A stretch of 64,000 nt of DNA. It comes from Frankia sp. AgB32. Its GTDB lineage: Bacteria > Actinomycetota > Actinomycetes > Frankiales > Frankiaceae. Made by a program: the position numbers and the translations under genes. The stretch is from the NCBI RefSeq assembly GCF_023243045.1, contig NZ_JALKFX010000027.1:1-64000 (forward strand), written 5' to 3'. Shown here one piece after another: positions 20,362 through 46,600 of this stretch (positions are counted from its first letter, which is position 1; each line of letters begins with the position of its first letter). A model generated the notes under the pieces. It ran no database searches. It saw nothing but the letters and a program-made list of their open reading frames with translations, and had not been told where the DNA came from.

Positions 20362-23300
20362 ATGGAAATCAAACTGCTCGGCGAGATGCGGCTGTTGCAA
20401 TCTGGGCAGATCATCGATGCAGGGCCGGCACTGCAACGCCGGGTGCTCGCAGTATTGGCCGTGGAAGCGGAAGCAGGAAAGCCCGTTCACACCAATACGT
20501 TGATCGAGCAGGTGTGGCACGACGAAGAAACGCCCAGAAAACCAAACGACAGTCTGCGTGTGTACATCAGCGAGCTACGTCGGATATTCGCCGAGCACGC
20601 CGATGGCGGACCCGCCGTTCGGATCCCCCGCGGCAGAGGGGGACAGTACCGCCTAAGTCTCGATGTTGAACAGATAGACATTTTCCACATGCGCCGGCTC
20701 CGACAACGAGCGGCAGGAGTCACCGGAAACGACGACCGCGTGCGTCTCCTTCGCGAGGCGAACAGCCTGTGGCAGGGCGATCCGCTCAAGGACTTCTCGT
20801 CCACCTGGGCCGAGACCGTTCAGGAAGAGTGGCGCCAGGAGAGGAAGGCTCTGGTCGCGGACTGGGCGACGGCAGAGCTGGCGGCCGGGAATCCACAGCC
20901 CGTGATCGAGCCTCTACGGAAGTTGGTAAACGAAGACTTTGGGAGCGAACGTCACGTCACCCTGCTGATGCGCGCGCTGGCCGCTGCCGGCAGGCGCGGC
21001 GAAGCTCTGGACGAGTTCAGGTCAGCGCACGATCAGATGAGTGAAGAGCAAGGATACCAGCCCGGCACAGAGATGAATCAGGTCTACCAAGAAATCCTTA
21101 ACGACGGTGTCGCGGACGTTGACACGTTGACGCCGAGGCAACGCCGCCACCAGGGTGCGACGTCGCGCGGCCTGGATTCGAACAGCTCAGTTCAGGTGGG
21201 CAGCATTCCGCCACGGGCGGACAATTTCCAGGATCGGCCTCAGGCGCAGAAACTGTTCGATGCCGCCTGCGCGGGGCAGACCGCGGTGCTCACCCAGGTG
21301 GTCGCTGGCCTGGGTGGAGTAGGCAAGACCCAGCTTGCCGCCGATTTCGCTCGGCGTCTCTGGCAGGACGGGCATGGTGAGCTCGATCTACTGGTGTGGG
21401 TGTCGGCACTGACCCGTGACTCCGTCGTGTCCAGTTACGTGAAGGCGGCGGGGGAACTCGGGCTCGGGCGGGACGAAGAGGACCCGGCAGTCCTCCTCGA
21501 GACCTTTCTCAACTGGTTGGAGACCACGCCGCAGCGTTGGCTGATCATCCTCGACGACCTGGCGGATCCAGTTGCCATCGAGGGTCTGTGGCCTCCCCAG
21601 CGACCCACCGGCCGCGTGGTCATCACCACTCGGCGCCGCGATGCGACTCTTCTTGACCGTGGCGGACATGTCAACATCGACGTGTTCTCGGAGGCCGAAG
21701 CGAAGGACTACATAGTCCGGAAACTGAACCGCCGGCCCCACCTGATCGACGACGTCGAGCGGATTGTGACGGTCCTGGGTGCGTTTCCTTTAGCGCTGAG
21801 CCACGCAGCCGCATATATGATCGACATGGATATATCATGCGATGCCTACGCCGACCAGTTCGTAGACCGAAAGAATCAGCTTGAGCGGCTTTTTCCCAGC
21901 AAGGAGAACCGGTTCGACGACTACGCCAACACCGTTTCTACCACCTGGGAAATATCCGTCAAGAAGGCGAACGATCAGTATCCCGCCGGCCTCGCCCGGC
22001 CGCTGATGGAGATCGTCAGCACGTTGAACCCCAACGGCATCCCGGGGCGAGTCCTGCGGGCACGCGCCGCCGGGGCTTACCTGCTCGGACGGATTCGCGA
22101 CAGTCCGGACCGGGACGATATCCACAGCCCGGGCGCGAACACCATCCGGCAGGGGCTGCGTGGCCTGCACCGTTTTCATCTCGTCACATACGAGAACGAT
22201 GTGGTCCGTGTCCACGCGCTGGTGCAACGAGCTGTGCGAGATCACCTCCGCGGAGACGGCTCGCCGGAGAAGGCGGCGGCGCCGCACCAGTTGATGGCGG
22301 TCGCCCGGGCCTCAACCGATGCCCTCCTGGAGGTGTGGCCGCCCGCCGACAGCGACAAGGACCTGAGCCAGCTGCTGCGCGTCAACGCGGTGGCGATCGA
22401 GAACAACCACCCGGACGCGATCTGGGACCCTGAACGCGGAATCCACCCAATCATGACGCGCACCGTCCAGAGTCTCGGGACTGAGGTACGCCTCGGCGAG
22501 GCGGTCGATCTGAGCGCGCGGTTGGACGCCATGTCCGGACAACGTCTGGGGCCAGATCATCCGACCACCCTGGCTCTGCGAAATCAAACCGCCGCGATAC
22601 TCGGCGACAGAGGACAGGTGCGGGAGGCTGTGGACAGCCTCGACGCACTGATCGCGGAAGTCACCGCTGCTCTGCGCAAGGCGCGCGAGGGAGCCGACGG
22701 GAAACTGGTGGAGAGACTGGAGATCGAGCTGGTCGAGGTGCGACGCAACTACGCCTACCAGTCGGGTCAGGCAGGTCGTCCGGCGACGGCGGCGCACCAG
22801 TTGAAGACGGTGCTCGCGGACCAGACGCGGCTACTGGGCGCCGAACACGAGGCGGTGATCGGCACCCGCACCCAGCTTGTGTACTGGCGGTCCAAGGCCG
22901 GGGACACCACCGGCTCGGTGGCCGAACTGGAAGATCTGGTCCGGCTCGCTACCAGAGTCCACGGTGTCGAGAGCCGGCAGACCCTCGAGCTGCGCAGTCT
23001 CCTCGGCACCCAGCGCGGGGACTCCGTCGGGCCCGCGCAGGCCGCCATCGAGATGCAGGATCTTCTCGAGGACATGCGGCGGATACTCGGCCCAGACGAC
23101 CGCGACGTGTCGGTTCTTCGTAACAACCTGGCGATGCAGCGGTGGAGGGCCGGCGACCTGATCGCGGCGGCCGCCGAACTACGGAAGCTGGCCGACGAAC
23201 GGGATCACCTCCACGGGCCGCATCACCGGGACACCATCGCCACGCGTCACGGACTCAGCAGGGTACTCGTCGACCTGAAGAGATTTTCGGAGGCTGCAGT

Positions 23301-23562
23301 ACAACTTGACAAAGTGATCGACGGAACGAGCCGAATGTACGGCGCGAAGCATCCCGACACGTTAGGCCGGCGCTACGCACTTGCCTGCGTCTACGAGCAG
23401 ATGGATCGGCCACACCAGGTGATAGCGGCCGAGATCCTCCACGCTGTCCTCGACGACCAACTGGCTATCCTGGACTCGGACAGCCACGAGGCGGTGATCG
23501 CGACGAAAGAGGCTTTGGCTCGGGTGACAGCCCTCCTTGAAACGGGTGACATGCGCGAGTGA
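20362..23562 (+). CDS. AfsR-like SARP-NB-ARC-TPR regulator (STAND ATPase)
   Basis: A 1,066-aa multidomain regulator. Residues 1-100 form an OmpR-type winged helix (MEIKLLGEMRLLQSG, then RVYISELRRIFAEH); 105-250 are a bacterial transcriptional activation domain (BTAD); 290-600 are an NB-ARC ATPase with P-loop GLGGVGKT (316-323) and Walker B RWLIILDDL; from about 690 to the end are tetratricopeptide-like repeats (LGPDHPTTLALRNQTAAIL and related units). Such proteins sense a ligand through the TPR part and activate a neighbouring operon, here most likely the divergent HerA operon. The stop codon falls directly at the junction with an antitoxin-gene relic, so the C-terminus may be cut short or newly formed there. 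Confidence 0.92.
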   Translation: MEIKLLGEMRLLQSGQIIDAGPALQRRVLAVLAVEAEAGKPVHTNTLIEQVWHDEETPRKPNDSLRVYISELRRIFAEHADGGPAVRIPRGRGGQYRLSLDVEQIDIFHMRRLRQRAAGVTGNDDRVRLLREANSLWQGDPLKDFSSTWAETVQEEWRQERKALVADWATAELAAGNPQPVIEPLRKLVNEDFGSERHVTLLMRALAAAGRRGEALDEFRSAHDQMSEEQGYQPGTEMNQVYQEILNDGVADVDTLTPRQRRHQGATSRGLDSNSSVQVGSIPPRADNFQDRPQAQKLFDAACAGQTAVLTQVVAGLGGVGKTQLAADFARRLWQDGHGELDLLVWVSALTRDSVVSSYVKAAGELGLGRDEEDPAVLLETFLNWLETTPQRWLIILDDLADPVAIEGLWPPQRPTGRVVITTRRRDATLLDRGGHVNIDVFSEAEAKDYIVRKLNRRPHLIDDVERIVTVLGAFPLALSHAAAYMIDMDISCDAYADQFVDRKNQLERLFPSKENRFDDYANTVSTTWEISVKKANDQYPAGLARPLMEIVSTLNPNGIPGRVLRARAAGAYLLGRIRDSPDRDDIHSPGANTIRQGLRGLHRFHLVTYENDVVRVHALVQRAVRDHLRGDGSPEKAAAPHQLMAVARASTDALLEVWPPADSDKDLSQLLRVNAVAIENNHPDAIWDPERGIHPIMTRTVQSLGTEVRLGEAVDLSARLDAMSGQRLGPDHPTTLALRNQTAAILGDRGQVREAVDSLDALIAEVTAALRKAREGADGKLVERLEIELVEVRRNYAYQSGQAGRPATAAHQLKTVLADQTRLLGAEHEAVIGTRTQLVYWRSKAGDTTGSVAELEDLVRLATRVHGVESRQTLELRSLLGTQRGDSVGPAQAAIEMQDLLEDMRRILGPDDRDVSVLRNNLAMQRWRAGDLIAAAAELRKLADERDHLHGPHHRDTIATRHGLSRVLVDLKRFSEAAVQLDKVIDGTSRMYGAKHPDTLGRRYALACVYEQMDRPHQVIAAEILHAVLDDQLAILDSDSHEAVIATKEALARVTALLETGDMRE

Positions 23563-30185: not shown

Positions 30186-30830
30186 CGAAGAGCCTGTCTC
30201 GCTCATGACGAGTGCAACGGTCATGTCCCTGATCAGCGGTCTGCCGATGCATCCGGAACCTGGTGACACCACTTTTTCGATCAGGACTGACGAGGGGATC
30301 ACATCATGCCAGGTCCGGAGGCCGGGAGCCCCGTTGCGGGGCCACGAAGAAGGTAACGGGAGGCTCACTGACCGGTCCGAGCCCGGTCGACCGCGGCAAA
30401 GCCGGCTCGAAACTGCACGTGCTCACTGATGCCGCCGGTCTTCCGCTGGTCGTCGGTGTCTCCGGGGCCAACCTCCATGACGGCCACGCGCTGATCCCAC
30501 TGGTCACGGGGATCCCCGCGATCCGTTCCCGACGCGGCCCGCGGCGCCGCAAGCCAGGCAAGTTGCGCGCGGACAAGGCCTACGACAGCGACGACCTGCG
30601 TCGATTCCTGCGCGCCCGCGGGATCACACACCGGATCGCCCACAAGGGCATCGAGTCCAGCGAGAAGCTCGGCCGCCACCGCTGGAAGGTCGAGCGGACG
30701 ATGGCCTGGCTCGGCGGCTACCGGCGTCTCACCATCCGCTGCGAACGCAACGGCCATAACTTCCTCGGGTTCCTCACACTGGCAGCGGCACTGACCTGCT
30801 GGAAGAAGCTGGCCACATGAGACAAGCTCT
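30186..30830 (+). mobile_element. Internally deleted IS5-family element
   Basis: Left end AGAGCCTGTCTC (30186-30197) and right end GAGACAAGCTCT (30819-30830) are inverted repeats with 11 of 12 matches. The span is 645 bp, shorter than a complete element, because the 5' third of the transposase is missing. Adjacent target duplication is not clear. Confidence 0.75.
30371..30820 (+). pseudogene. IS5-family transposase, C-terminal part only
   Basis: From LTGPSPVDRGKAGSKLHVLT the frame is intact and typical: ADKAYDSDDLRRFLRARGI (second catalytic Asp) and RWKVERTMAWLGGYRRLTI (catalytic Glu), ending GFLTLAAALTCWKKL. The N-terminal domain with the first catalytic Asp is deleted; an open frame runs back to 30263, but its residues are not transposase-like. 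Cannot be active alone. Confidence 0.85.
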
Positions 30831-30901: not shown

Positions 30902-31765
30902 TCAGGACGATGCCCCCGGAATGTTGATGGGAAGAACGATACCTTCGTGCACGGAGACGCATGGACAATCCCGTTCAACTGGAAGGTCGGGCAGGGTCTC
31001 CTTAAGCAGCACGCGCAGTCGGTCCGTGTTCTCAGCGAAGATGCGGAAGACCTCTGGCTGCGAAACCGAAGATTCCTGGTCCACGCCCGCATCGAAGTCG
31101 GTGACGAGTGCGACCGTGGTATAACACATGGCGAGTTCACGTGCGAGCGATGCTTCCGGGTAGCCAGTCATGTTGATCACGGAACATCCCGCCGCCGCGT
31201 ACCATCGCGACTCGGCGCGGGTCGAGAAACGTGGCCCCTCGATTACCAGCATCGTTCCGCCGTTCACGATCCCGAGCCCCAACCGGTCGGCGCTCTTCGC
31301 GAGGACCGAGCGTCCGACCGGGCAGTAGGGATCGGCGAACGAGACGTGAACCGCACCGGTCTCAAAATAACTCTGCGAACGTCCGCTGGTGCGATCGATG
31401 AGCTGATCCGGAATGACGAAAGTGCCGGGTGGCTGGTCGGCCAGCAGTGAGCCGACCGCGCAGGGAGCAAGAATTTGCCTTACTCCGAGGGCGCGAAGTG
31501 CCCACATGTTGGCACGGTAGTTGATCGCTGATGGTGGATATTCATGACCGCGCCCGTGGCGAGGTAGAAAAGCGACAAATCTGCCATCGATCTGCGCCAC
31601 CGTGAAAACGTCTGAAGGCTCCCCGTACGGGGTGCTGACTCGAACTTCTTTGGTGTTGTCGAAAAGGCTGTAGAGGCCGGTTCCGCCAATCACTCCCAGT
31701 TCGATTCGGTCATCTTGTGTCGCATGGGGAATGCTTGCCACAAAATCCTCCTTGAATGGTTGCAA
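30902..31765 (-). CDS. mtnP: S-methyl-5'-thioadenosine phosphorylase
   Basis: A 287-aa enzyme that splits MTA with phosphate into adenine and 5-methylthioribose-1-phosphate. It has the purine-nucleoside phosphorylase family-2 marks: VIGGTGLYSL at the N-terminus, PRHGRGHEYPPSAINYRAN (phosphate and ribose contact), LVIEGPRFSTRAES and INMTGYPEASLARELAM with VTDFDAGVD. Last gene of the salvage set, 79 bp after mtnC. Using MtnP makes the Pfs nucleosidase and MtnK kinase unnecessary. Codon use and GC are lower than in core genes of the window. Confidence 0.93.
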   Translation of the reverse strand: MQPFKEDFVASIPHATQDDRIELGVIGGTGLYSLFDNTKEVRVSTPYGEPSDVFTVAQIDGRFVAFLPRHGRGHEYPPSAINYRANMWALRALGVRQILAPCAVGSLLADQPPGTFVIPDQLIDRTSGRSQSYFETGAVHVSFADPYCPVGRSVLAKSADRLGLGIVNGGTMLVIEGPRFSTRAESRWYAAAGCSVINMTGYPEASLARELAMCYTTVALVTDFDAGVDQESSVSQPEVFRIFAENTDRLRVLLKETLPDLPVERDCPCVSVHEGIVLPINIPGASS

Positions 31766-31844: not shown

Positions 31845-32567
31845 CTAGGTGTTCCCGTTCCCGATCGATCCATCGGTATTCGGAACCGGATCCAGGTCAA
31901 CCTCGCCAAAGTCGGTGACTTCCCGATGCTGGCTGGAACCGACGGGTTCGCGAAGGCTTCTTATGACCCAGAAACTGGACCAGCCGGCGGCCTTCGCCGC
32001 GTCAAGCTCCGCTACTACGTCCGAGAGAAAGAAGATCCGTGACGGGGGCAGATCGAGGAACCGTGCAATGAGTTCGTAGGAGTCCCTAGACCTCTTCGGC
32101 CCGGCGTTCCTGATGTCGAAGTGCCTTGTGATGTACCGAGAGAGATCTCCCAATTGAGTATGCTTGAACCACGCCTGCTGGGCGCGGACCGAACCCGAGG
32201 AGTAGATATTCACGGTTAGGCCCTGATCGACCCAGGAAGCCAGGGCAGGCGGAACGTCCCGGTACACGTGCGAACACAGCTCGCCGGCCTCCAGTCCCTT
32301 CTCCCAGATCAGCCCCTGAACGCTCTTGAGAGCAGCTGCCTTCCGGTCTTCACAGATCCATTGCCGCAGCGTCGCACCGAGGCCGCCGGGTGCCGCAGCA
32401 GACGGGCCGGCGGCCGATCGAAGCTCGTCCATGAGATCCGGGTGTTCGGCGCCGCAGCGCTCCAGCCACTCCTCGATCCGTTCGGCCGAATACGGGACGA
32501 ATGTGTCTTGGAAATATTCCAGCGAACTCGTCGTGCCCTCGATGTCGAGAACGACCGCTCCAGTCAT
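31845..32567 (-). CDS. mtnC: Acireductone synthase (enolase-phosphatase E1)
   Basis: A 240-aa HAD-superfamily enzyme that enolises 2,3-diketo-5-methylthiopentyl-1-phosphate and removes its phosphate. Motif I is VLDIEGTTSS, specific for MtnC; motif II is YSSGS; motif III/IV is RIFFLSDVVAELDAAKAAG. Its start overlaps the mtnD stop by 4 bp. Length is that of the family. The single-chain MtnC type replaces the MtnW/MtnX pair. Confidence 0.95.
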   Translation of the reverse strand: MTGAVVLDIEGTTSSLEYFQDTFVPYSAERIEEWLERCGAEHPDLMDELRSAAGPSAAAPGGLGATLRQWICEDRKAAALKSVQGLIWEKGLEAGELCSHVYRDVPPALASWVDQGLTVNIYSSGSVRAQQAWFKHTQLGDLSRYITRHFDIRNAGPKRSRDSYELIARFLDLPPSRIFFLSDVVAELDAAKAAGWSSFWVIRSLREPVGSSQHREVTDFGEVDLDPVPNTDGSIGNGNT

Positions 32568-33133
32568 GCCACAATTTCGTCAAGCGAGAGGATCCGCGAC
32601 GACACCGGATCCCCGCTGAAGTCGCCGACCCAGCCGTCCTCATTCAGGAAGAAACGTATCGCGCAAAACTCTGGATCGCTTCCCATGTCGAACCAATGAC
32701 GGACCCGGGCAGGAATCGACAACAGATCTCCGGCCTCGCAGACGAGGGCGTAGACGTGGTCGCCAAAATGGAGGTAGAAACAGCCTTTTCCTTCGGCGAA
32801 GAAACGCACCTCGGCATCGCGATGTGTATGTTCCTCCAGGAACATCTGGCGAGCCTCAGACACGCGCGACGGACGGTGCGGATCTCCCGCGCCGCGCACC
32901 ATCCGCACCACGTCGACGAATCTGAACCGGTGTTCGTTGATGAGGCGGTCCACCTCGGCACGGTACGCGTCTAGAATTTCTTTACCGTCTGGAGCAAGAC
33001 CTACTGGTCGCTGTACCCTCCAGCGCTCGAAGTGCACATTCTGGGCAGCAAGCTCCAGGCTTATCCGTACCGGATCGCTCGTACTCAGGGCCGCCCTTCC
33101 CCCGCCATCCGGAATGATCTGCATCAAGGTCAT
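32564..33133 (-). CDS. mtnD: Acireductone dioxygenase
   Basis: A 189-aa cupin. Metal ligands are visible as EEHTHRDAEVRF (H102, H104, E108) and RHWFDMG (H146). It oxidises the acireductone to formate and 2-keto-4-methylthiobutyrate when iron-loaded; a nickel-loaded form gives methylthiopropionate and CO. It begins 3 bp after the mtnB stop and overlaps mtnC by 4 bp. The start could also be the second Met (codon 4). Confidence 0.95.
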   Translation of the reverse strand: MTLMQIIPDGGGRAALSTSDPVRISLELAAQNVHFERWRVQRPVGLAPDGKEILDAYRAEVDRLINEHRFRFVDVVRMVRGAGDPHRPSRVSEARQMFLEEHTHRDAEVRFFAEGKGCFYLHFGDHVYALVCEAGDLLSIPARVRHWFDMGSDPEFCAIRFFLNEDGWVGDFSGDPVSSRILSLDEIVA

Positions 33134-33136
33134 GTC

Positions 33137-33802
33137 TCAGCTCATTTCTATTCCGCCTACCGCAACCGTCAATTGATCGAGAAGGTAGAGGCGGCACAGG
33201 ATCTCAAGGCTTTCCAGCTGGATTCGGGCTGAGGCCAGGTCGCTGCCCCAGGCAGTGGCACCGTGGTAGGAGATCAAAAAAATGTTCGGGGAGTGCGACC
33301 GCCCGGGCCCGGCTGCGTAGTAGTCGCGGACGTCGGCTGCGATCCGCGAGACGTCGCGATGGTTCCGGAAGACCGGAAGACTGATCTGGGGGTCGTCCGA
33401 GCCCCCGAAGGCCTTGATGATCTCATAGTTCTCAAAGTCGACGGAACCGAGACCCTGCCGCGCGGCCTGTGCCGAGATGGTCGTCGCGAACGGTGGATGG
33501 GCATGCGCGACAGCTTGGCAATCTGGAAAGGCCTGATACAAAGCGAGATGAATCGCGGTCTCGGCCGAAGGCCGAGGACCTCCGGACGCGGGACGGCCAG
33601 TCTCGATGTCAACCTCGGTGATGTCCTGTGGGGTCAGGTCACCCTTCTCGCGTCCGCTCGCCGTGATGGATATGGCCGCGTCCAGGTCTCCACGTCGGAT
33701 TGACAGATTCCCCGCAGTACCCTCCATCCAGCCGCGTGCGTACAACCGGCGGGCGGTCAGTACTAGATCCCGTCGATCACGATCTGCCGGGTTCGTCGTC
33801 AT
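33137..33802 (-). CDS. mtnB: Methylthioribulose-1-phosphate dehydratase
   Basis: A 221-aa class II aldolase/adducin-fold enzyme. GTAGNLSIRRG and the zinc-binding AHAHPPFATTIS segment are present, and the C-terminal ISYHGATAWGSDL supplies the last metal histidine. It dehydrates methylthioribulose-1-phosphate to the diketo intermediate used by MtnC. Tightly packed with mtnD. Confidence 0.93.
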   Translation of the reverse strand: MTTNPADRDRRDLVLTARRLYARGWMEGTAGNLSIRRGDLDAAISITASGREKGDLTPQDITEVDIETGRPASGGPRPSAETAIHLALYQAFPDCQAVAHAHPPFATTISAQAARQGLGSVDFENYEIIKAFGGSDDPQISLPVFRNHRDVSRIAADVRDYYAAGPGRSHSPNIFLISYHGATAWGSDLASARIQLESLEILCRLYLLDQLTVAVGGIEMS

Positions 33803-33928: not shown

Positions 33929-34963
33929 TTATCGACCGATGAGCGGGTCGAGCGGCTGATCTGCTACTTCAACGCCGTTGGCGAGAATATTATTCTCGGT
34001 TATGACGGCAGTGACCAGATCGGTCGGAGTGATATCGAAGGCAGGATTGAATACGGTGGTACCTGTCGGCGCGACCTGCATTCCCGCGAAATGTGTCACC
34101 TCGTCCGACCGCCGTTCTTCGATCACGATCTCGCTACCGGTGGCGAGCGCCGCATCGAGGGAGGACTCCGGGCTCGCCACGAGGAACGGCACACCTGCGT
34201 GCCGGGCGGCGGCTGCTAACGCGTACGTGCCAATCTTGTTCGCCACGTCACCGTTCGCGGCAATCCGGTCTGCTCCGACGAGCACACAGTCCACCATCCC
34301 GCGATACAGCGCGGCGGCGCCGGCGGAGTCGACGCATAACCGGTGAGGAATTCCGGCCTCCGCTAGCTCCCAGGCAGTGAGGCGGGCACCTTGCAGGAGC
34401 GGTCTCGTCTCGCCGAGAAGAACCTCGTGCACTCGATCCAGGTCCGCCAGTTCGCGGATGGCGCCCAGCGCGGTGCCCCAGGCCACGGTTGCCAGACGGC
34501 CCGTGTTGCAGTGCGTGAGTATCCGTACCCGGCGTTCCGGGAACAGCCGCATCACGAGCTGGGCAACACGGCGTGAGACCGCCCGATTCGTCTGCTCGTC
34601 CTCGTTCAGCATCCGCAGAGCCTCTGCCAGGACTGCCCGAGGGCCCTCGGACACGCGGTTCAACGCCCGCCTCACCCCCCACTCCAGATTCACCGCGGTG
34701 GGCCTGGCGGCGGTGAGGCGCGCCGCGTCCCTCCGTACCGCGGCCTCGTCGACCACTCCCTCTGTGGTGTTCAGCGCGCTGGAAAGTGCGACTCCCAGCG
34801 CCGCGGCCACACCTATCGCGGGCGCACCGCGGATCGCTAGACTGGAGATGGCCTCGACGAGTTCGTGGACGGATGTCAGTCTGAGTAGGCGCAGCTCACG
34901 GGGGAGTGCCCGCTGGTCGACCGCGACGATGGCACCCTGGTCCCAGGACAGGGAACGTTCCAC
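33929..34963 (-). CDS. mtnA: Methylthioribose-1-phosphate isomerase
   Basis: A 344-aa eIF2B-alpha-like isomerase converting methylthioribose-1-phosphate to methylthioribulose-1-phosphate. GTG 34963 is chosen because AAGGAGA lies six bases upstream; the open frame extends further without homology. Markers are IRGAPAIGVAAALG, RILTHCNTGRLAT (catalytic Cys) and CVLVGADRIAANGDVANKIG (catalytic Asp). It follows the PaiB-like gene after a 123-bp gap, so an internal promoter for the salvage genes is possible. Confidence 0.95.
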   Translation of the reverse strand: MERSLSWDQGAIVAVDQRALPRELRLLRLTSVHELVEAISSLAIRGAPAIGVAAALGVALSSALNTTEGVVDEAAVRRDAARLTAARPTAVNLEWGVRRALNRVSEGPRAVLAEALRMLNEDEQTNRAVSRRVAQLVMRLFPERRVRILTHCNTGRLATVAWGTALGAIRELADLDRVHEVLLGETRPLLQGARLTAWELAEAGIPHRLCVDSAGAAALYRGMVDCVLVGADRIAANGDVANKIGTYALAAAARHAGVPFLVASPESSLDAALATGSEIVIEERRSDEVTHFAGMQVAPTGTTVFNPAFDITPTDLVTAVITENNILANGVEVADQPLDPLIGR

Positions 34964-35086
34964 AGGCTGTCTCCTTCCGCTCACGCCGGCAGGGCATGCG
35001 GCACCGTCGTGGGCGGGCCGGCATGCCGCAGGCCGGCCTTCAACAACCACACGAATCGGTGACTGCCGGGGCTGCGATTCTGCTGA

Positions 35087-35752
35087 TCACGTGCCGGAGG
35101 CGCTGGGCTCCTCCGCCTGGGCGGTCGCCTTCCACTGCCCTGCGTCCAGCCATTCGACCAGGTCGCGATAGTCGTCACCGGAGCTGAAAGGTGTTCTACT
35201 CGCAAAGGCAGAGATCGCCGCCCGGTCGACATCGGACCGATGGCCGCTCGTCTTCTGTGTGATTTTTACCTGATCGATATGGTACCGGAACGTCAGGATG
35301 GCCGGTAGAAGCTTCTGATAATAGCTGAGTGTGTCGCCCATATGCTCGCCATACAGGAGCTTGGGATCTATTTCGCTCGCCGTCGTCAGGAGGGCTTCGA
35401 AAGAATCCTCGCCATCTTCTATCAGCTCGATCCTGCCAGTGAATTTGACCGAGCAGTAGTTCCAGGTCGGTACAGCGGGCTGACGCTCGTAGCAGGTCGG
35501 TGAGACGTAGGTATGGGCGCCGGCCACCAGGCCGAGGGTGGGGTGTGGCCGTGGCCAGGCCCTCGGATGCGGATTGGTTCTGCTGACATGCCCGAGGAGC
35601 GTCAAATCTCCTTCGGTGGCTTTCAGTACAGTGAGCGGGACACGTGAGACTAGATAGTCGTCCTCAACGAAATCGACGAGCTCGCAGAGCGGATACCTCC
35701 GCAGCAAGGCAGCGGCGAGCTCCAGGTCACCTCCTTCGACTTCGACAGTCAT
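35087..35752 (-). CDS. PaiB-like flavin-reductase-fold (FMN-binding split barrel) protein
   Basis: A 221-aa protein resembling PaiB: PLTVLKATEGDLTLLGHVSR, then VSPTCYERQPAVPTWNYCSV and FRYHIDQVKITQKTSGHRSDVD. PaiB proteins have an FMN-binding split-barrel fold and were named as negative regulators, but many sit in biosynthetic clusters and may be enzymes. Its start overlaps the acyl-CoA dehydrogenase stop by 4 bp, so it belongs to the biosynthetic transcript. A flavin oxidoreductase role in the pathway and a heme- or flavin-sensing role are both open. Confidence 0.8.
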   Translation of the reverse strand: MTVEVEGGDLELAAALLRRYPLCELVDFVEDDYLVSRVPLTVLKATEGDLTLLGHVSRTNPHPRAWPRPHPTLGLVAGAHTYVSPTCYERQPAVPTWNYCSVKFTGRIELIEDGEDSFEALLTTASEIDPKLLYGEHMGDTLSYYQKLLPAILTFRYHIDQVKITQKTSGHRSDVDRAAISAFASRTPFSSGDDYRDLVEWLDAGQWKATAQAEEPSASGT

Positions 35753-36906
35753 GAGGCAATCAGCTCACCCAACAGAATCATGAGATAGTTGTTCTCGCCC
35801 TCGTACAGCTGGTTCAATCTCACGTCCCGGTATAGTTTCTCCATCGGAAACTCCTCCATATATCCGTTTCCGCCCATCAGCTGCATGGCTTCCGAGACCA
35901 CCTCAGTCGCCTGCTCGGAACAATAGGTCTTCACCATGATGGCCAGCTTGTCATCCAGACGGTCCGTGTCCTCGGCCTGGAGGAACGCCGTGTAGGCAAA
36001 GGCGCGAACCGCAGCCACGCGAGTCGCCAGACGCGCGAGCCTCACCTGGACAGCCTGGTGCTCGACCAGCGCCCTGCCGTTCTGCACCCGGTTCCGGCAG
36101 TATTCGAAAGCGATGTCGTAAGCCCGTTTGGCCACGCCCGCGCTGGAGATTCCCACTCCCGGCCGGGCGAGCGCGAGGGTCGAGGTGAAGATGTGCGCAC
36201 CCTGGCCAGCCACCCCCACGAGGTGGTCCGCGGGCACGAAAACATCGTCGAAATGTAGTTCTCCCACACGGCTCGTGCGGTGCCCGAGCTTCGCGGGCTC
36301 GGCACCGACGCGAAATCCCTCGCTCGTCGTGTCGACCACCAGGAGGACTGGGCCTTCGCGCGAAGCACAGAGCGTGACGACATACGAGGCGATCGGCCCG
36401 TTGGAGATAAATCGTTTGACGCCGCGCACCACCCAGCCGCTCTCGTCCCTCTCAGCCCAGGTATTCAGGCCAGTACCGGTCCTGGCGGCGCTCAGTACGT
36501 CTGATCCGGACTCTGGTTCAGTACCGGCGACCGCGAAGAAGACCCGGCCGTCCACGTCGTCTCGGATGATTTTTCCGAAGCGTTCCCGCAGACCGTAGTC
36601 ACCGAACTGCAGGATCGGGGTCAGCCCGAGTGTGTTGCCACCGATGATGTCAGTGCATCCGAGGTCGGCATACGCGAGCTCCTCCAAGATGATCCCGACG
36701 GAAACCAGATCGAGCCCATTGCCCCCGTACTCCTTCGGGATCGCAGCCCGGCCGAAGCGTTGGTTTATCTCCCAGGCCGCGGACTCGGGCAGTGCTTGTC
36801 GGCGTGCGTCGCATTCACGTCCCAGCGGTAGCAGGGTGCCGCGCGCATAAGCGCGAACGGAATCACGCAGCTCTGTCTGTGCCTGCGTGAGCGTCAACGT
36901 GGGCAT
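35749..36906 (-). CDS. Acyl-CoA dehydrogenase
   Basis: A 385-aa flavoprotein of family length. FAVAGTEPESGSDVLSAART and RFISNGPIASYVV (flavin and acyl-CoA contacts), QLMGGNGYMEEFPMEKLYRD and LNQLYEGENNYLMI (catalytic Glu in the YEG context) are present. It introduces an alpha,beta-double bond into an acyl-CoA or a carrier-bound acyl group. It overlaps the amidase gene by 13 bp and the PaiB-like gene by 4 bp. With the acyl-CoA ligase of the same operon it probably prepares an unsaturated acyl unit. No electron-transfer flavoprotein genes are adjacent. Confidence 0.92.
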   Translation of the reverse strand: MPTLTLTQAQTELRDSVRAYARGTLLPLGRECDARRQALPESAAWEINQRFGRAAIPKEYGGNGLDLVSVGIILEELAYADLGCTDIIGGNTLGLTPILQFGDYGLRERFGKIIRDDVDGRVFFAVAGTEPESGSDVLSAARTGTGLNTWAERDESGWVVRGVKRFISNGPIASYVVTLCASREGPVLLVVDTTSEGFRVGAEPAKLGHRTSRVGELHFDDVFVPADHLVGVAGQGAHIFTSTLALARPGVGISSAGVAKRAYDIAFEYCRNRVQNGRALVEHQAVQVRLARLATRVAAVRAFAYTAFLQAEDTDRLDDKLAIMVKTYCSEQATEVVSEAMQLMGGNGYMEEFPMEKLYRDVRLNQLYEGENNYLMILLGELIAS

Positions 36907-38315
36907 GTGAGTGTGCTCCCCGTCGGGCCGACTTCCGCCCTGACGATGCGGTCAGCCAGATCAAGCAGTCTCTCCTCGGACCAGGCGGGTCCGACAATCT
37001 GGATCCCGGCGTGAAGGCCGGACTGCAGACGGACAGGTATCGTAACGGCCGGCAGACCGAGCATCGACACCATCCAGGTACAGCGCTGGGCTGCCAACAG
37101 ATGCGCCTCGCCCCCGTCGTATTGGACAGTCTGAACTCCTGACGGCTGGGCGGTGACGGGCGAAGCCGGAAGCAGGATGACGTCTGCCCGTCCGAACAGC
37201 TCGGCTGCATCCGTCCGCAGGTTGTGTCGTTTGATGGCGGCTCGCGCGAAGTCGGCTAGATCCACCGGGCTGCTCGCCGCGAGCTCAAGGAAATTCTGCA
37301 GTGTCGGCCCGATCAGTTCTGGATGCGCCATGAACAGGCCGAGGTCGTTTGGATCACCACCGTAGCCGCCGGCCAGCGCCCAGAAGAAATCCTCGGACTG
37401 GTCAAGGAACTCGGCACCCTCATCCAGGATGGTGAAACCGAGCGAGGAGACGATCGCGCTGACTTGGGACAGCGCGGCCGCGACGCCGGGGTCCAAGGGG
37501 ACCGGCCCGATTTGGTCGCACACTATAGCAAATCCAGTGCTGCCCGCCGATGTAGGTCCAACTGGTACCGAGTACGGGTTCAGCGGATCGTGGGCGGACA
37601 TCACTCCGAGAAAATACCGCAGATCATCAACCGATGATGCGAGCGCGCCGAGAACCGCCACCTCGTGCCAGGCGTCCGGGCTGTGTCCCTGGGCCGGCAC
37701 CAGCCCCGGGGTCGGCTTCAAAGAGAAGCACCCAGACCACGCAGCCGGCAGGCGCAGTGAACCGGCGAGGTCTGACGCAATGCCCAGACTCGCGCAGCCG
37801 AGCCGAACCGCGACGGCGTCACCCGAGCTTGACCCGCCCGCGTCAAGGTGCGGATCGTCGGGATTGGCCACCGCGCCGAAGAGCGGATTGTCCGATGTCA
37901 GGCCAAGGGTTAGCTCGGCGCAGTTTGTCTTGCCCAGGACGATGGCACCGGCGGCGCGCAGTCGCGCCACCGCCCTCGCGTCCGAGACTCCGACTCTATC
38001 GCGAAAGAACAGTGACCCGCTGGTAAAGGGCGCGCCTGCCACCTCCAGCGCATCCTTGACCGTGACTACGATGCCGTCAAGCGCGCTGAGCGGCTGACCA
38101 TTCCGATAGCGCTCGGCTGATGCTCTCGCCTCAGCGCCGGCGTCATCGGATCGGAGATGGACGATCGCGTTCGAGCGGACACCGAGCTGCTCGACCTGCC
38201 GCAAGCTCATCTCAAGCAGGTCGACTGGCGTGAGGTCGCCACTACGGTAGCGGGCTGTGATCCCCGCGATCCCACCGAGCTCAAGCACACCTGCGGAGTG
38301 GTGTGTCAGTGTCAC
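36894..38315 (-). CDS. Amidase-signature family hydrolase
   Basis: A 473-aa amidase-signature (GatA-like) enzyme. The catalytic Lys lies in GIVVTVKDALEVAG, the cis-Ser in DAGGSSSGDAVAV and the nucleophilic Ser in ASDLAGSLRLPAAW, where family members usually have DTGGS, so the loop next to the nucleophile is altered while the serine is kept. The family hydrolyses or transfers amide groups. No GatB or GatC partner is present, so a pathway amidase or amide-forming enzyme is more likely than tRNA amidation. It overlaps the ligase gene by 4 bp. Confidence 0.9.
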   Translation of the reverse strand: MTLTHHSAGVLELGGIAGITARYRSGDLTPVDLLEMSLRQVEQLGVRSNAIVHLRSDDAGAEARASAERYRNGQPLSALDGIVVTVKDALEVAGAPFTSGSLFFRDRVGVSDARAVARLRAAGAIVLGKTNCAELTLGLTSDNPLFGAVANPDDPHLDAGGSSSGDAVAVRLGCASLGIASDLAGSLRLPAAWSGCFSLKPTPGLVPAQGHSPDAWHEVAVLGALASSVDDLRYFLGVMSAHDPLNPYSVPVGPTSAGSTGFAIVCDQIGPVPLDPGVAAALSQVSAIVSSLGFTILDEGAEFLDQSEDFFWALAGGYGGDPNDLGLFMAHPELIGPTLQNFLELAASSPVDLADFARAAIKRHNLRTDAAELFGRADVILLPASPVTAQPSGVQTVQYDGGEAHLLAAQRCTWMVSMLGLPAVTIPVRLQSGLHAGIQIVGPAWSEERLLDLADRIVRAEVGPTGSTLTCPR

Positions 38316-40631: not shown

Positions 40632-41722
40632 GCGCTCTCGGTGGTGCTCTGCGGGCGAGTCCAGGACTCATAGCGGGAGTAGTATCCGATGCGGTCCAGT
40701 GAGATGTTTGATTTTGAGAGGCTGGAGTCGAGGTTCCACCCGCCGGCGCACTCTGGCAGCGCCCGTTCTCTGAGAAAGGATCGGAGGAAAACCCGTGCAC
40801 CCGGGCGCGAGACACGGCTGACTGCCTGCCAGACAGTCAGGTAGGATTCTTCGTCGCACCAGTCGAGAATGTTGCTGAGATTTATCGCGTCGACGGACCT
40901 GGGTGGGAGGGACTCAAGGGCATCGGCGAGATCGGCGACAACCCACTGGATTTTTCTGCTCGTCTGGCGAACGGTGTCGAAGCTGTCTGGACGAGCGAAT
41001 TCGGGAAGCTCCGCCTCTTCGGACCAGGCACCCGATACAAGCCGGGAGAAGAAATAGTTTTCTTTTGCATATCGCGTCACCATCTGTCGAAACATGATGT
41101 TGTGAAAGAAATGCGAGAATGGGACCTCTGCCATCATGGGAAATGCCCAGCTTGGAATGAATGCGCCCGAGATCTTCTCGTCCGCGAGATAGTCGTCGAG
41201 AAAGGAGACAACCGAGGGGCCGGCCAGGTGGGCTTCCCAGAGTTCCAGTCGCCGCGACGGGGAAGAAGTGTTGAGGATGAGACGGAGCGCGTCGTCTCCC
41301 GCCGTGGCCAGGCCTCGCCGCAGGCCTTCGAGGAACTCCTCGAGGTGGGAGAAGGCCGCGAGACCGCCCGATTTGGATACCTCGGACCGCTGCAGCTCCC
41401 GGAGCGGGACAGCGGCGGCGTGTTGGTCAAGTATCCGATGCACTTCGTGACTCGGTGCTTTTTGATACCCCATCGCAACGGCGAAGTCGCCGTAGGTGGC
41501 CGCTGTCATCAGCCGCTGTTTGGCCTTGCAGAGCTCGATCTGCGCGGAAGAGACGTCCACCGCGATGACCTCCGCCGCGCTGGTGCACGCCGCGTTGAAG
41601 GCGTTGTCGCCACCCGACGCGATTGTGACGACAGTGTCACCCGGCTGGATCTGTAGAGAGCGTTTGATGACCCACCAGTCCTCCATCACCTCGGAGTACG
41701 TGGGCCGCTCCAAGCCCTTCAC
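40628..41722 (-). CDS. BtaA/DUF3419-type SAM 3-amino-3-carboxypropyl transferase
   Basis: A 364-aa protein matching DUF3419, the family of BtaA, which moves the 3-amino-3-carboxypropyl group of SAM to a hydroxyl (in betaine-lipid synthesis) and releases MTA. The N-terminal PTYSEVMEDWWVIKRSL and the SAM-loop region DTVVTIASGGDNAFNAAC with VIAVDVSSAQIELCKAKQ are present; the C-terminal SVDAINLSNILDWCDEESY completes the Rossmann part. No BtaB methyltransferase is near, so ordinary betaine lipid is unlikely. Its by-product explains the mtn genes in the same cluster. It overlaps both neighbours by 4 bp. Confidence 0.88.
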   Translation of the reverse strand: MKGLERPTYSEVMEDWWVIKRSLQIQPGDTVVTIASGGDNAFNAACTSAAEVIAVDVSSAQIELCKAKQRLMTAATYGDFAVAMGYQKAPSHEVHRILDQHAAAVPLRELQRSEVSKSGGLAAFSHLEEFLEGLRRGLATAGDDALRLILNTSSPSRRLELWEAHLAGPSVVSFLDDYLADEKISGAFIPSWAFPMMAEVPFSHFFHNIMFRQMVTRYAKENYFFSRLVSGAWSEEAELPEFARPDSFDTVRQTSRKIQWVVADLADALESLPPRSVDAINLSNILDWCDEESYLTVWQAVSRVSRPGARVFLRSFLRERALPECAGGWNLDSSLSKSNISLDRIGYYSRYESWTRPQSTTESA

Positions 41723-42405
41723 CGGGAGGTGGCGGCCAGCGCCCTGCCGGCAACGTAGGCCCGGAAGACGCCGTCGAGCAGCAGCCCCTGCAGGTGTAGC
41801 GACTCCTCCAGGACCCGGCGGATCGCCACTCTGTCCTCTTCGCTGCGAACGGCCTCCTTGATCGCCCGGCGCACCCCGTTGAAGTGGGCCTCGTCGATCG
41901 TCGAGTGCTCGACGAAGAAGGTCATCTGGTCGTCGCCCAGACCCATCGCACGCATGGCGTCCGTCAGGTCACGAATATGTGTGTAGCAGCTCTCGGCCCA
42001 GTAGCTGTAACCGAGGCGCGCAACTGCTCCCTCCAACATCGCTATTCGGTAGAGATATGAGATGAAGGCCAGCGACTCGGGCAGAGGCCGGCTGTTCGCG
42101 ACCGGTTCGGTGTCGTAGTCGGCGGCGGCGAGGTCGTGGATGACCATCTGGTCGTGACCGGCCTCGGCGTACGCGTGATGAGTCGCGAAACGCAGGAGGG
42201 GCAGTTGGTCGGAGAAGACGTTGACCGCGGCGAGGGCCTGGTTCTGGGTGTTGTGGCGCGTGTAGTGATAAATCTCGCGCATGAGAAGGTAGTAGAGCTC
42301 GCGGTTCAGACCTTCGTTGCGAAGGTGCTGCCAGAAGGGCATCTTATGGATCTCAGCCCACTTGACGGCGGCGATTTTGTCGAGTTCAGCGAAGAAGTGT
42401 TCCAT
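41719..42405 (-). CDS. Heme-oxygenase-like diiron oxidase/oxygenase (HDO superfamily)
   Basis: A 228-aa all-helical protein. ATG 42405 is chosen because AGGAGAG stands six bases upstream; an open frame continues to 42621 without homology. It fits the iron-containing redox enzyme (TenA/UndA/SznF-like) family: E81 and H84 in AEAGHDQM, E138 in SYWAES, and H167, D171, H174 in EHSTIDEAHF are candidate metal ligands, with E44/H47 earlier. HDO enzymes do N-oxygenation, oxidative C-C cleavage or desaturation on amino-acid-like substrates. The gene overlaps the BtaA-like gene by 4 bp, so its likely substrate is the aminocarboxypropyl product. The exact reaction is unknown. Confidence 0.82.
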   Translation of the reverse strand: MEHFFAELDKIAAVKWAEIHKMPFWQHLRNEGLNRELYYLLMREIYHYTRHNTQNQALAAVNVFSDQLPLLRFATHHAYAEAGHDQMVIHDLAAADYDTEPVANSRPLPESLAFISYLYRIAMLEGAVARLGYSYWAESCYTHIRDLTDAMRAMGLGDDQMTFFVEHSTIDEAHFNGVRRAIKEAVRSEEDRVAIRRVLEESLHLQGLLLDGVFRAYVAGRALAATSR

Positions 42406-42941: not shown

Positions 42942-43652
42942 TTATGCGATCGCCGGGGAGACGGTCCGACGCGGCGTAACACGGCGACGCTGTTGCGAGC
43001 GTTCGACTAACTCGAGGATGTGCCCCTGAACCACGGCGTATCGCTGGGAGCTGGCAGAGCCGTGCGAGAGCGTGTGGTGTGAGAGTATCCGAGCACCGAA
43101 CCGACGCGAGTACAGGACTGCCAGTCTCGGCTTGCAGACGGCGAACCACTGCCGGCAGTCAAGCTCCTCGAGCAGCTGCTCAGCGGAGTCGCCCACGAGA
43201 ATGTCAAGTATTTCGGTGCCTCGGTGCCTCGAATCTACCAGCAGCCGCGATATCTCGACGTATTCGCCGTCGTATTCGCCGTCGAGTGAACCGAGGATGG
43301 CGTGACGGGAGGGCAGATCGAACTGCGGAAACCAGTCTTCGACCTCTGCCGAGTAGCGGATCGACGCCGCGATGCCGTCCAGATACTGGATGTAGTACAC
43401 GTGCGAACGCTGGTCTGGTACGTCGACTCCCTCCGTATCGACCTTCCGGGAGGAAACGACATGAGGGTCACTGCGCCATAGGTGAACAATGCGGTGCAAC
43501 TGGATCCGAGCCAGCTCGCGTGAGGTGCGGGCCTTTCGAACTACGAGGCCTTCTGCAGTTGTCGCCTGGCTCGAAATCGTGACTGTTCGGCTATGGGCGC
43601 CGTCTTCCAGTCCCACACATCCCCCTTGTGTGCGCCTTCGCGAATTTTGCAA
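42942..43652 (-). CDS. GNAT-fold N-acyltransferase, LuxI/FeeM-like
   Basis: A 236-aa protein. The core reads VYYIQYLDGIAASIRYS, then VEISRLLVDSRHRGTEIL and AVCKPRLAVLYSRRFGARIL, ending YAVVQGH. Order and spacing resemble acyl-homoserine-lactone synthases and FeeM-type N-acyl amino acid synthases (the E-SR strand, then a basic turn, a helix and a Y-R-x-G strand). It would join an acyl group to the amine of SAM or of an amino acid; LuxI enzymes also release MTA. Start is uncertain; an internal Val start is possible. It is first of the cluster, separated from the rest by a 535-bp leader. The assignment is by fold only. Confidence 0.6.
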   Translation of the reverse strand: MQNSRRRTQGGCVGLEDGAHSRTVTISSQATTAEGLVVRKARTSRELARIQLHRIVHLWRSDPHVVSSRKVDTEGVDVPDQRSHVYYIQYLDGIAASIRYSAEVEDWFPQFDLPSRHAILGSLDGEYDGEYVEISRLLVDSRHRGTEILDILVGDSAEQLLEELDCRQWFAVCKPRLAVLYSRRFGARILSHHTLSHGSASSQRYAVVQGHILELVERSQQRRRVTPRRTVSPAIA

Positions 43653-44153: not shown

Positions 44154-45522
44154 CCAGGGCCCCGGCAAGTTTGCTGACGCGTAGGTGGTGGTCAGGCCTG
44201 GGGTTTCTGGTGGGGCTGTGTAGCGGGATGCGGGCATGTGGTCGGGGGCCCCGTGGGCACGGGCACGACACCTGAAGATCATGAAGGTTCCTACGCCATC
44301 ATGATCGACCCGAGGTGCCGTGCCCGCCGTACCAGTATCACCGCCTGTCCCTGTTCTCGATCATCTGGCTGCCACCGTCACCGATGGTCATTACCGGCCG
44401 TCGTCGGCGTCGGTTCTGCTGGCGGTCTTCGACCGGGTCCCGGATCCGCGCAAACCCCAAGGAAGACGGCACAGCCTGGCCGTGGTGCTGACTTTGGCGA
44501 CGTGCGCAGTGCTCGCCGGCGCGCGGTCGTTCACCGCGATCGGTGAGTGGGCCGCCGATGCCGGCCTGGCGGTCGCTGAACTGCTTGGTATCGTCCGGGT
44601 GCCCGACGAGTCAACGTTCCGCCGGGTGTTCGCCGCGCTTGACGCCGGCGCGCTGGACACGGCGCTGGGCGTGTGGGCCGCCGTGGCGACCAGCCCGGAC
44701 ACCGGGACACGGCGGCGGGTCGCGGTCGACGTCAAGACCCTGCGTGGTTCCCGCACCGGCGACGCTGCGGGTCGGCATCTGCTCGCCGCGCTGGACCATG
44801 ACACCGGTGTGCTTGGCCAGGTCGCGGGGGACGCGAAGACGAACGAGATCCCCGCGCTGTCGGTCCTGCTCGCCGGCCTCAATCTGACCGGTGTGATCGT
44901 CACGGCGGATGCTCTGCATACCCGGACCGAGACCGCTCGCTGGCTGGTCGGCCGCGGAGCGCACTACCTGCTGACGATGAAGGCGAACCAGCCCAGCCTG
45001 TATGCCCAGCTCGCAGCCCTGCCCTGGCGTCAGGTTACGACCTCCGCGCGGACCGTCGAGCGGGGCCACGGCCGCCGCGAGCAGCGCACCGTGAAAGCCA
45101 CCGAGGTCCGCGCTGGGCTGCTGTTCCCGCACGCCGTGCAGGCGGTGCGGATCACCCGCCGACGCCGGCCGCTCGCCGACGGGCCCGCCGAGACCGAGGT
45201 CGCCTAGTAGCTGATCACCAGTCTCCCGACCCATCAGACCAGCCCGACCCAGCTCGCCGCGTTCGCCCGGGAGCACTGGCTGGTCGAGAACCGGCTGCAC
45301 TGGGTCCGCGACGTCACCTTCGGTGAGGACTTCAGCCAGGTCTGGACCGGTCACGCGCCCCACGTCATGGCCAGCCTGCGTAACCGGGCGATCGCGGTCC
45401 TGCGCCTGGCCGGCGTCGCGAACATCGCCGCAGGAATCCGTCACCACGCCCGCCACCCCGAACGCCCACTAGAGGCGATCATGAAGCTTGCTTGCTAAGC
45501 GACAACTTTGCCGGGGCCCTGG
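44154..45522 (+). mobile_element. ISAs1-family insertion sequence
   Basis: The left end CCAGGGCCCCGGCAA (from 44154) is mirrored at the right end up to 45522, with more similarity inside. Flanks GGCAGTAC (44146-44153) and GGCGGTAC (45523-45530) form an 8-bp target duplication with one mismatch, which suits ISAs1 elements. Length of about 1.37 kb is normal. It carries one transposase gene. Confidence 0.85.
44320..45498 (+). pseudogene. ISAs1-family transposase with two adjacent in-frame amber codons
   Basis: A 392-codon frame encoding the full family length: DRVPDPRKPQGRRHSLAVVL, GVWAAVATSPDTGTRRRVAV with DVKTLRGSR, LTMKANQPSLYAQLAALPW and, after the stops, HWLVENRLHWVRDVTFGEDF and VMASLRNRAIAVLRLAG. 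The only defects are TAG TAG at 45205-45210, between TEVA and LITSL, where relatives have aromatic or aliphatic residues (two TAC codons would need one change each). There is no frameshift. Everything else, including the ends of the element, is intact, so inactivation is recent or the two bases are sequence errors. Confidence 0.85.
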
Positions 45523-45573: not shown

Positions 45574-46485
45574 CTAATAGTGGAATCGGGTCAAACGCTC
45601 GCTCAGGACCCGGTCGAGCGCCGCCCTTCCCGCCGGACCCCACGTCGGCTTGCCGCCGGGCAGGCCGCGGTCCCCGTTCTGGCCCATCAGCATCAGGAAG
45701 AGGCTCTTCAGCGCGGCCAACCCGCGGGCACGCCGGACCGTCGCCTCGTCGGCCGCCGCGTACGCGGCGAAGAAGCGTGCGGCCGCGCCAGCCGGCAGCA
45801 ACACCCAGGCGGCCGCCAGGTCCGACGCCGGGTCTCCGACGAACAGGTCGCCGAAGTCGACAACGCCCGCCAGCGTCCCGTCCGCGACGACGACGTTCGC
45901 GGGGTGCAGATCGCCGTGCACCCACACCGGCGGACCCTCCCATACGGGGGCCGCCACGGCGTCGTCCCAGACAGCCCGGACGTCGGCGGCATCGGAGCCG
46001 ATCGCGTCAGCGTCGACGGAGTCGAAGAACCGGTCGAAGCCGTCCGTGCAGTCCTCGGGGTGCGCTCCGCGGCCCGTATCAGCCGGTGCGTCGCCGGGCG
46101 CCGCCACATGCAACGCCCGGAGGAACGCCGCCAGGGTGTCGGCCGCGCGCTCGCTGCGGGTGATCGACCCGTGGTCCAGCGGCAGGCCCGGCACCCACGT
46201 CATGACCGTCCAGATCTTGGGGAACCGCTCGGAGGACGCACCACTGCGCACCGGGACGGGGATTGGCAGCGGCAGGCGTGGGGCGAGCAGCGGCAGCCAC
46301 CGGCGCTCCTTGAGCTGGTGATCGGGGTCGGTGTCCATGCGCTGGATCCGCACGACCAACTCGTCCCCGAGGCGCCACATCTGGTTCCCCCAGCCGCCCT
46401 CCACCTCGCGCAGCGGCAGCTCGGCCAGGTCCGGATGCTGGTCCCGCAGCAAATCGCGGATGAGACCCGCGGTGATCTCGGTCAT
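45574..46485 (-). CDS. Aminoglycoside phosphotransferase (APH)-family kinase
   Basis: A 303-aa APH/choline-kinase-like enzyme from ATG 46485. WVHGDLHPANVVV is the catalytic loop (HGD-x4-N), and VVDFGDLFVGDPASDLA carries the metal-binding Asp. The N-lobe has VRIQRM as the nucleotide-lysine strand, in which Arg stands where a Lys is usual. Such enzymes phosphorylate aminoglycosides, macrolides or other small alcohols; the substrate cannot be predicted. 76 bp of it recur exactly at the left edge of the window. It sits between an IS element and an XRE gene. Confidence 0.9.
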   Translation of the reverse strand: MTEITAGLIRDLLRDQHPDLAELPLREVEGGWGNQMWRLGDELVVRIQRMDTDPDHQLKERRWLPLLAPRLPLPIPVPVRSGASSERFPKIWTVMTWVPGLPLDHGSITRSERAADTLAAFLRALHVAAPGDAPADTGRGAHPEDCTDGFDRFFDSVDADAIGSDAADVRAVWDDAVAAPVWEGPPVWVHGDLHPANVVVADGTLAGVVDFGDLFVGDPASDLAAAWVLLPAGAAARFFAAYAAADEATVRRARGLAALKSLFLMLMGQNGDRGLPGGKPTWGPAGRAALDRVLSERLTRFHY

Positions 46486-46600
46486 GCGGAGCAACCATAC
46501 TGGTTCATCGCGACACTTCCTGGGAGCAGACGCGAAATGATCCTCTCAAACGGGCCGGCCTCCACCGAATCCAGGGCGTTTCACTGCTGGTGAACTTCGC

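Follow-up and report, generated by a model that had tools for sequence, protein, structure and literature searches.

A haem-oxygenase-like oxidase gene coupled to a DUF3419 gene in a probably laterally acquired Frankia operon with MTA salvage genes

The window, a stretch of 64,000 nucleotides from Frankia sp. AgB32, carries on its minus strand a gene for a haem-oxygenase-like dimetal oxidase/oxygenase (HDO) followed by a gene of the DUF3419 family (Table 1). The HDO reading frame runs from 42405 to 41719 with an ATG start, in exact agreement with the interval originally predicted, for which the strand had been left unstated; the plus-strand reading of the same interval contains stops. This is the single HDO copy in the 6.68-Mb host genome. 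The HDO stop and the GTG start of the DUF3419 gene share 4 bp (GTGA), which verifies the predicted overlap, and the same 4-bp overlap is found at the related loci L046 and L078. All six junctions from the HDO gene through the PaiB-like gene are overlaps, five of them of 4 or 13 bp and one of 20 bp. Past the PaiB-like gene the run goes on, after a spacing of 36 bp, into mtnA-B-D-C-P, which lie on the minus strand as well, at spacings of -4 to 126 bp. Among the cluster genes, none was recognised as encoding a carrier protein.

Table 1 Features of the window and ArgRS-like genes at related loci (L046, L078, L079, L120).
Feature	Coordinates	Strand	Evidence
DDE transposase, downstream flank	30263..30820	+	PF01609 E=5.5e-19
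mtnP, MTA phosphorylase	30902..31765	-	NF005876 413.3 bits, cut-off 306; sole copy found in genome
mtnC, enolase-phosphatase/acireductone synthase	31845..32567	-	TIGR01691 187.5 bits, cut-off 128
mtnD, acireductone dioxygenase	32564..33133	-	PF03079 E=4.1e-28
mtnB, methylthioribulose-1-phosphate dehydratase	33137..33802	-	TIGR03328 155.7 bits, cut-off 137
mtnA, methylthioribose-1-phosphate isomerase	33929..35050	-	TIGR00512 378.8 bits, cut-off 279
PaiB-like FMN-binding protein	35087..35752	-	PF04299 E=4.2e-25; homologue by module in L046, L120
Acyl-CoA-dehydrogenase-like flavoenzyme	35749..36906	-	PF00441 E=1.3e-39
Amidase (amidase-signature family), candidate deacylase	36894..38315	-	PF01425 E=4.1e-70
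AMP-binding acyl-CoA-ligase-like enzyme, 498 aa	38312..39808	-	PF00501 E=8.4e-47
GNAT acyltransferase, 280 aa	39789..40631	-	PF00583 E=4e-8; 4-bp overlap
DUF3419 (BtaA superfamily), putative SAM:3-amino-3-carboxypropyl transferase, 364 aa	40628..41722	-	PF11899 E=5.5e-39; 4-bp overlap with HDO
HDO, 228 aa	41719..42405	-	PF14518 E=2.6e-20; 3DDE E=1.5e-41; MboA ligand mapping
FeeM-like N-acyltransferase (GNAT/N-acyl amino acid synthase type)	42942..43652	-	PF21926 E=0.0047, below Pfam cut-off; phmmer 5.6e-8 to L046 counterpart
DDE transposase, upstream flank	44320..45207	+	PF13808 E=2.7e-23 and PF01609
Divergent ArgRS-like paralogue by FeeM-like/HDO/DUF3419, L046	6882-8675	-	
Same, L078	11308-13470	+	
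Same, L079	11218-12996	+	
Same, L120	9745-11424	+	

The stretch from the HDO gene to the mtn genes was probably acquired laterally, since it is poor in GC and has transposases at both sides. Between 30851 and 43700 the GC content is 0.616 compared to 0.701 in the rest of the window, and none of the 121 windows of the same length outside this interval falls below 0.659. A large BTAD/NB-ARC/TPR regulator of the actinomycete cluster-activator type (20362-23562, plus strand) lies about 7 kb past the low-coordinate transposase, and an APH-family phosphotransferase gene (45574-46494, minus strand) directly outside the high-coordinate one.

The HDO protein matches the Pfam family of iron-containing redox enzymes PF14518, and its closest solved structure by phmmer is 3DDE (Sden_3740). 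Foldseek with a low-confidence AlphaFold model (pLDDT 55.6) also ranked 3DDE first (TM 0.75), followed by CADD (0.67) and BesC (0.63), in agreement with a haem-oxygenase-like helical bundle. In the original prediction all six candidate metal ligands were said to be present. Profile alignment and residue mapping bear this out: the six crystallographic Fe ligands of MboA, as given in the accessible part of PMC13185094, correspond one-to-one to the identical residues E81, H84, E138, H167, D171 and H174, i.e. the 3-His/3-carboxylate set of the HDO superfamily. These residues are invariant in all five aligned relatives, and D85, the counterpart of the extra, partly conserved acidic MboA ligand Asp90, is D or E in the same five. 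Clustering of the six ligands is read from the MboA mapping and from the solved relative 3DDE, neither of which speaks against it. On the strength of the fold matches and the six MboA-type ligands, we assign the protein to the HDOs, with a predicted enzymatic activity.

In the DUF3419 protein, PF11899 covers residues 8-348. The description of this protein as BtaA-like therefore stands at the level of the family, but not beyond: its identity to the BtaA-type protein of a rhizobium is only about 20%, so that it could transfer a different part of SAM. The gene of the rhizobial protein is adjoined by a methyltransferase gene, whereas no second methyltransferase that could be a BtaB-like partner was found among the operon genes scanned. 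Foldseek with the model of this protein, which was poor, like that of the HDO (both were built from two-row alignments; pLDDT 49.9), returned nothing beyond weak matches to SAM-methyltransferases with TM values of about 0.2. BtaA is an aminocarboxypropyl (ACP) transferase acting in betaine lipid synthesis, the known function of DUF3419, and ACP transfer from SAM gives off MTA (PMC10491745, accessible part); the betaine in these lipids is ether-linked (PMC6302742, accessible part).

The gene 536 bp upstream of the HDO gene encodes a FeeM-like protein with a PF21926 score of 17.2 bits against a cut-off of 27. Its L046 counterpart occupies the same position, and the counterparts at L046, L078 and L048 exceed the cut-off. 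The L046 protein passes in addition the cut-off of Acetyltransf_5, a family which we take to include OlsB-type acyltransferases.

At the far end of the operon, four of the five mtn assignments lie above NCBIfam equivalog cut-offs and mtnD was assigned by the Pfam family ARD. Together, the enzymes of mtnA-B-D-C-P are predicted to cover every step between MTA and the methionine keto acid. The final aminotransferase, a step usually covered by general aminotransferases, was not seen among the operon genes. Since ACP transfer from SAM releases MTA, this set fits an ACP transferase of the DUF3419 family in the same operon, and we regard it as the strongest evidence for aminocarboxypropyl chemistry; the original prediction had overlooked it. 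Among the loci examined, the mtn set was seen at the window locus only, and no mtn genes were present within the stretches searched at the planctomycete loci. In the genus, a close relative of mtnP (57-60% identity) is present in two of the 12 other genomes, in a different context; nine have weak matches of about 30% identity and one has no match.

In order to assess recurrence of the pair, relatives were collected from several genome sets. Searched against 396 genomes of the phylum, the HDO protein had matches in its own and 37 others at E<=1e-3, the matches listed being at most 32% identical, and within the 35 genomes of the order in its own plus two (G618 and G523). A search of genome contigs yielded one relative, L046. 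The A1 profile retrieved 22 of 294 planctomycete genomes at E<=1e-6, six of them at E<=1e-45 including G751, and among 154 genomes of one planctomycete class there were six at E<=1e-20, with G1076 as the sole new close one. The plasmid search gave 25 records with HDO relatives; the phages and viral contigs searched gave no relative. Among 393 genomes of the class, the DUF3419 protein had matches in its own and in 12 others, the latter with partial coverage or low identity; the 12 other genomes of the genus had no match. Against plasmids it had no match at 1e-5, although a Deefgea plasmid carries a divergent DUF3419 gene.

We examined 13 loci of the same HDO subfamily: the window, L046, L078, L079, L120, L049, L048, L050, L126, L127, L080, L081 and L082. 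The DUF3419 gene is directly beside the HDO gene in five of these (the window, L046, L078, L120 and L049), and at L079 one gene lies in between. Apart from the window, the carriers are four planctomycete genomes and the Deefgea plasmid, all of the same HDO clade, so the adjacency is not limited to this strain and a strain oddity is ruled out. The pairing apparently spans three phyla, and its recurrence in 6/13 loci strengthens the functional pair that had been proposed from the overlap. A FeeM-like or GNAT gene accompanies the HDO gene in 10/13 loci, including all six with DUF3419; in four (L048, L050, L126 and L127), FeeM-like and HDO genes occur without DUF3419. At 13 more distant HDO loci (L083-L093, L121 and L122), phmmer detected no DUF3419; for hits outside the subfamily from the phylum and planctomycete searches, neighbourhoods were taken for 11.

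All four planctomycete loci contain FeeM-like, HDO and DUF3419 genes, a gene of the penicillin acylase family (recognised as PF01804 by Pfam at L078 and L079 and through phmmer at L046 and L120) and, on the opposite strand, an ArgRS-like gene; two of the four share a PaiB-like gene with the window. The gene order on the Deefgea plasmid is FeeM-like, HDO, DUF3419, speD, monooxygenase and serine hydrolase, in which speD after DUF3419 is as expected for a branch with a SAM-derived alkyl donor. In the HDO tree, the DUF3419-linked proteins form one group with a support of 80/90, or 97/96 without Deefgea. The tree of DUF3419 proteins separates the window protein and its four planctomycete counterparts from BtaA-type proteins, while the Deefgea protein groups with the others on a long branch, outside the group of the window. 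Deefgea may have recruited its DUF3419 gene separately, and the pairing would therefore have arisen twice, or its position may be a long-branch artefact.

Other HDO neighbourhoods differ from these. In G618 and G523, FeeM-like, transporter-like (by eye) and AMP-ligase genes come after the HDO gene in this order, with no DUF3419. At L080 a GH3-type enzyme (Pfam) takes the place of the FeeM-like protein, and L081 and L082 look similar by eye; in this HDO branch (L080:298-2640, L081:7000-10394, L082:8698-10305) the HDO gene lies downstream of the GH3-type adenylating enzyme and DUF3419 is absent, and L081 has, by eye, a KAS III-like gene as well. A P. syringae plasmid (L050, NZ_CP011973.1, 12095-17153) combines the HDO relative with a PaaK-like ligase, a GNAT-like protein, a flavodoxin, an EamA transporter and a hydrolase, near anthranilate-synthase genes and without DUF3419. 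Such HDO relatives (44% identity) are carried by 23 Pseudomonas plasmid records predicted to be conjugative, of which one served for the neighbourhood and 22 were left out of the counts. The more distant planctomycete HDO genes at L083-L089 adjoin AMP-ligase genes, a single open frame matching both at L088 and L089, and one planctomycete genome has three consecutive HDO-like genes (L090:8320-10539, minus strand). A DUF3419 gene outside the BtaA/BtaB arrangement also occurs in an operon of a Roseinatronobacter plasmid (L129, NZ_CP121116.1, 523-8507), together with genes for a UbiA prenyltransferase, a membrane protein, a GNAT-like protein and an AMP-binding enzyme.

Based on these results, we propose, with a probability of roughly 0.5, that the HDO/DUF3419 pair belongs to an operon that was acquired laterally and directs the synthesis of a small specialised metabolite, with the HDO acting before ACP transfer and the MTA being recycled. 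We infer the reactions, their order and the product as follows. The FeeM-like GNAT would N-acylate an amino-acid-like substrate, and the dimetal HDO would use O2 to oxidise the N-acylated substrate, hydroxylation or N-oxygenation being the likeliest reactions. The DUF3419 enzyme would then add the ACP group from SAM to the oxidised intermediate; a hydroxyl made by the HDO on C or N would be a natural acceptor, since BtaA alkylates a hydroxyl. A deacylase, the amidase in the window or the penicillin acylase in the planctomycetes, would finally take off the acyl group. The GNAT, AMP-ligase, acyl-CoA dehydrogenase and PaiB-like proteins may provide tailoring steps in this strain. MtnP-A-B-C-D would return the MTA towards methionine, and the operon would therefore cover its own SAM cost. 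The original prediction had implied that the HDO acts on the DUF3419 product. Over the small sample of 13 loci, co-occurrence speaks for the opposite order: the HDO probably acts before aminocarboxypropyl transfer, because the FeeM-like/HDO combination recurs without DUF3419, yet every locus found with DUF3419 and HDO has a FeeM-like gene.

In the order implied originally, DUF3419 would first make an aminocarboxypropyl ether or amine, which the HDO would desaturate or cleave, with an enol-ether vinylglycine (aminoethoxyvinylglycine/rhizobitoxine type) as one example of a product. Amino acids are substrates of characterised HDOs, which are also capable of desaturation; MboA is an acetylenase that works on a Leu-Ala-Arg tripeptide (PMC13185094, accessible part). 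The ACP group, too, is an amino acid, and the two genes are tightly coupled. Since DUF3419 is absent from L048, L050, L126 and L127, however, HDOs of the subfamily would work there without an ACP adduct, and we consider this order possible but unlikely. Still less probable is an aminolipid pathway, in which a FeeM/OlsB-type N-acyl amino acid is modified by the HDO and receives a homoserine head group from DUF3419, to give a membrane lipid instead of a diffusible metabolite. It would be in line with the role of BtaA in betaine lipids (PMC10491745, accessible part) and with the Acetyltransf_5 match at L046, but it is ranked low: the operon has no BtaB-like N-methyltransferase, in contrast to the rhizobial arrangement, the window and 4/4 planctomycete clusters contain a deacylase-type gene, and an AMP-ligase and an acyl-CoA dehydrogenase would not be expected.

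Two further explanations concern the source of the MTA. The mtn genes could be a housekeeping salvage operon that lies downstream by chance and says nothing about DUF3419. As mtnP is the sole copy in the genome, the set would serve general MTA removal too, and its genes are separated by 36 bp from the PaiB-like gene and by up to 126 bp from one another; on the other hand, close mtnP relatives are confined to two of the 12 other genomes of the genus and have another context there, the GC-poor stretch covers both halves, and these lie on the same strand with no intervening gene, which makes a chance arrangement rather improbable. It is very unlikely that the FeeM-like protein, as an acyl-homoserine-lactone synthase, is the MTA source and DUF3419 something else. 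FeeM-like and LuxI-type enzymes have a common fold, the latter release MTA, and the FeeM-like gene adjoins the operon, but Pfam assigns the upstream proteins to FeeM and not to Autoind_synth, and the mtn set is found at the window alone compared to FeeM-like genes in 10/13 loci.

A more specific and doubtful version of the HDO-first order takes up the ArgRS-like genes. Here, the HDO would introduce an N-OH function, as in a hydroxylamine, oxime or N-hydroxyguanidine, which DUF3419 would O-alkylate with the ACP group of SAM to a canaline/canavanine-type alkoxyamine amino acid, with the planctomycete ArgRS paralogue as the matching gene for resistance or arginyl transfer. All three planctomycete genomes tested (G1076 was not among them) have a separate canonical-looking ArgRS elsewhere, and we therefore regard the cluster gene as a paralogue, which may serve self-resistance or arginyl transfer; in the L079 copy, Pfam detects the catalytic domain only. 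In the host genome, two ArgRS genes are present outside the contig of the window. A canavanine-type product in this organism, as read from its second ArgRS, is unsupported: close relatives of that ArgRS are present in 3/12 other genomes of the genus and DUF3419 in 0/12. If this version is true, bacteria would form O-(3-amino-3-carboxypropyl) oxyamines along an oxygen-dependent route that includes the recycling of SAM.

With a pair of an HDO and a probable transferase of a SAM piece, its own recycling genes and relatives in unrelated bacteria, the cluster is probably responsible for a small molecule whose biosynthetic route has yet to be described. The HDO family is growing fast and the sequence of a member does not reveal its substrate; here, a conserved partner fixes the adjacent step, ACP transfer as attested by the mtn set, which narrows the HDO chemistry and makes the reaction testable. 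If the pairing is as we read it, SAM chemistry would gain a new entry with ACP ethers or amines built on a group that the HDO has generated, and the mtn genes would be a case of a pathway that brings along the recycling of its cofactor. The pattern of co-occurrence further offers a handle on the wider FeeM-like/HDO family in actinomycetes, planctomycetes and proteobacterial plasmids.

The component enzyme families are known, but their combination appears to be undescribed in the open PMC literature, where nothing was found on DUF3419 or ACP transfer paired with an HDO. The window HDO has the haem-oxygenase-like fold and the 3-His/3-carboxylate set in common with MboA (mangotoxin acetylenase), BesC, UndA, SznF, PolF, AetD and CADD, although its sequence similarity to MboA and BesC is low (E=0.00067 and E=0.0048). 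It belongs to the same subfamily as 3DDE, a Shewanella structural genomics entry with no function in its title. While the partners of MboA are ATP-grasp ligases (PMC13185094, accessible part), those of the window HDO are a FeeM-like acyltransferase and DUF3419. The latter shares with BtaA the Pfam family over nearly its full length and the presumed ACP transfer from SAM, but is distant from the rhizobial type and has, instead of BtaB, the HDO and FeeM-like genes beside it. In the cluster of SB-203208, SbzA, SbzC and SbzI combine a tRNA-synthetase-like paralogue with GNAT acyltransferases, as in the planctomycete relatives; SbzA derives from IleRS, and the accessible part of that report mentions neither an HDO nor DUF3419 (PMC6331615). 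In natural-product synthesis, enzymes that transfer ACP or aminopropyl groups and release MTA are known as MccD/MccE of microcin C, CntL and nicotianamine synthase; in the accessible part of the source, BtaA is called non-homologous to this group and an HDO is not mentioned alongside any of its members (PMC10491745). Among the loci described here, the DUF3419-speD neighbourhood of Deefgea resembles the decarboxylated-SAM option of MccE/MccD.
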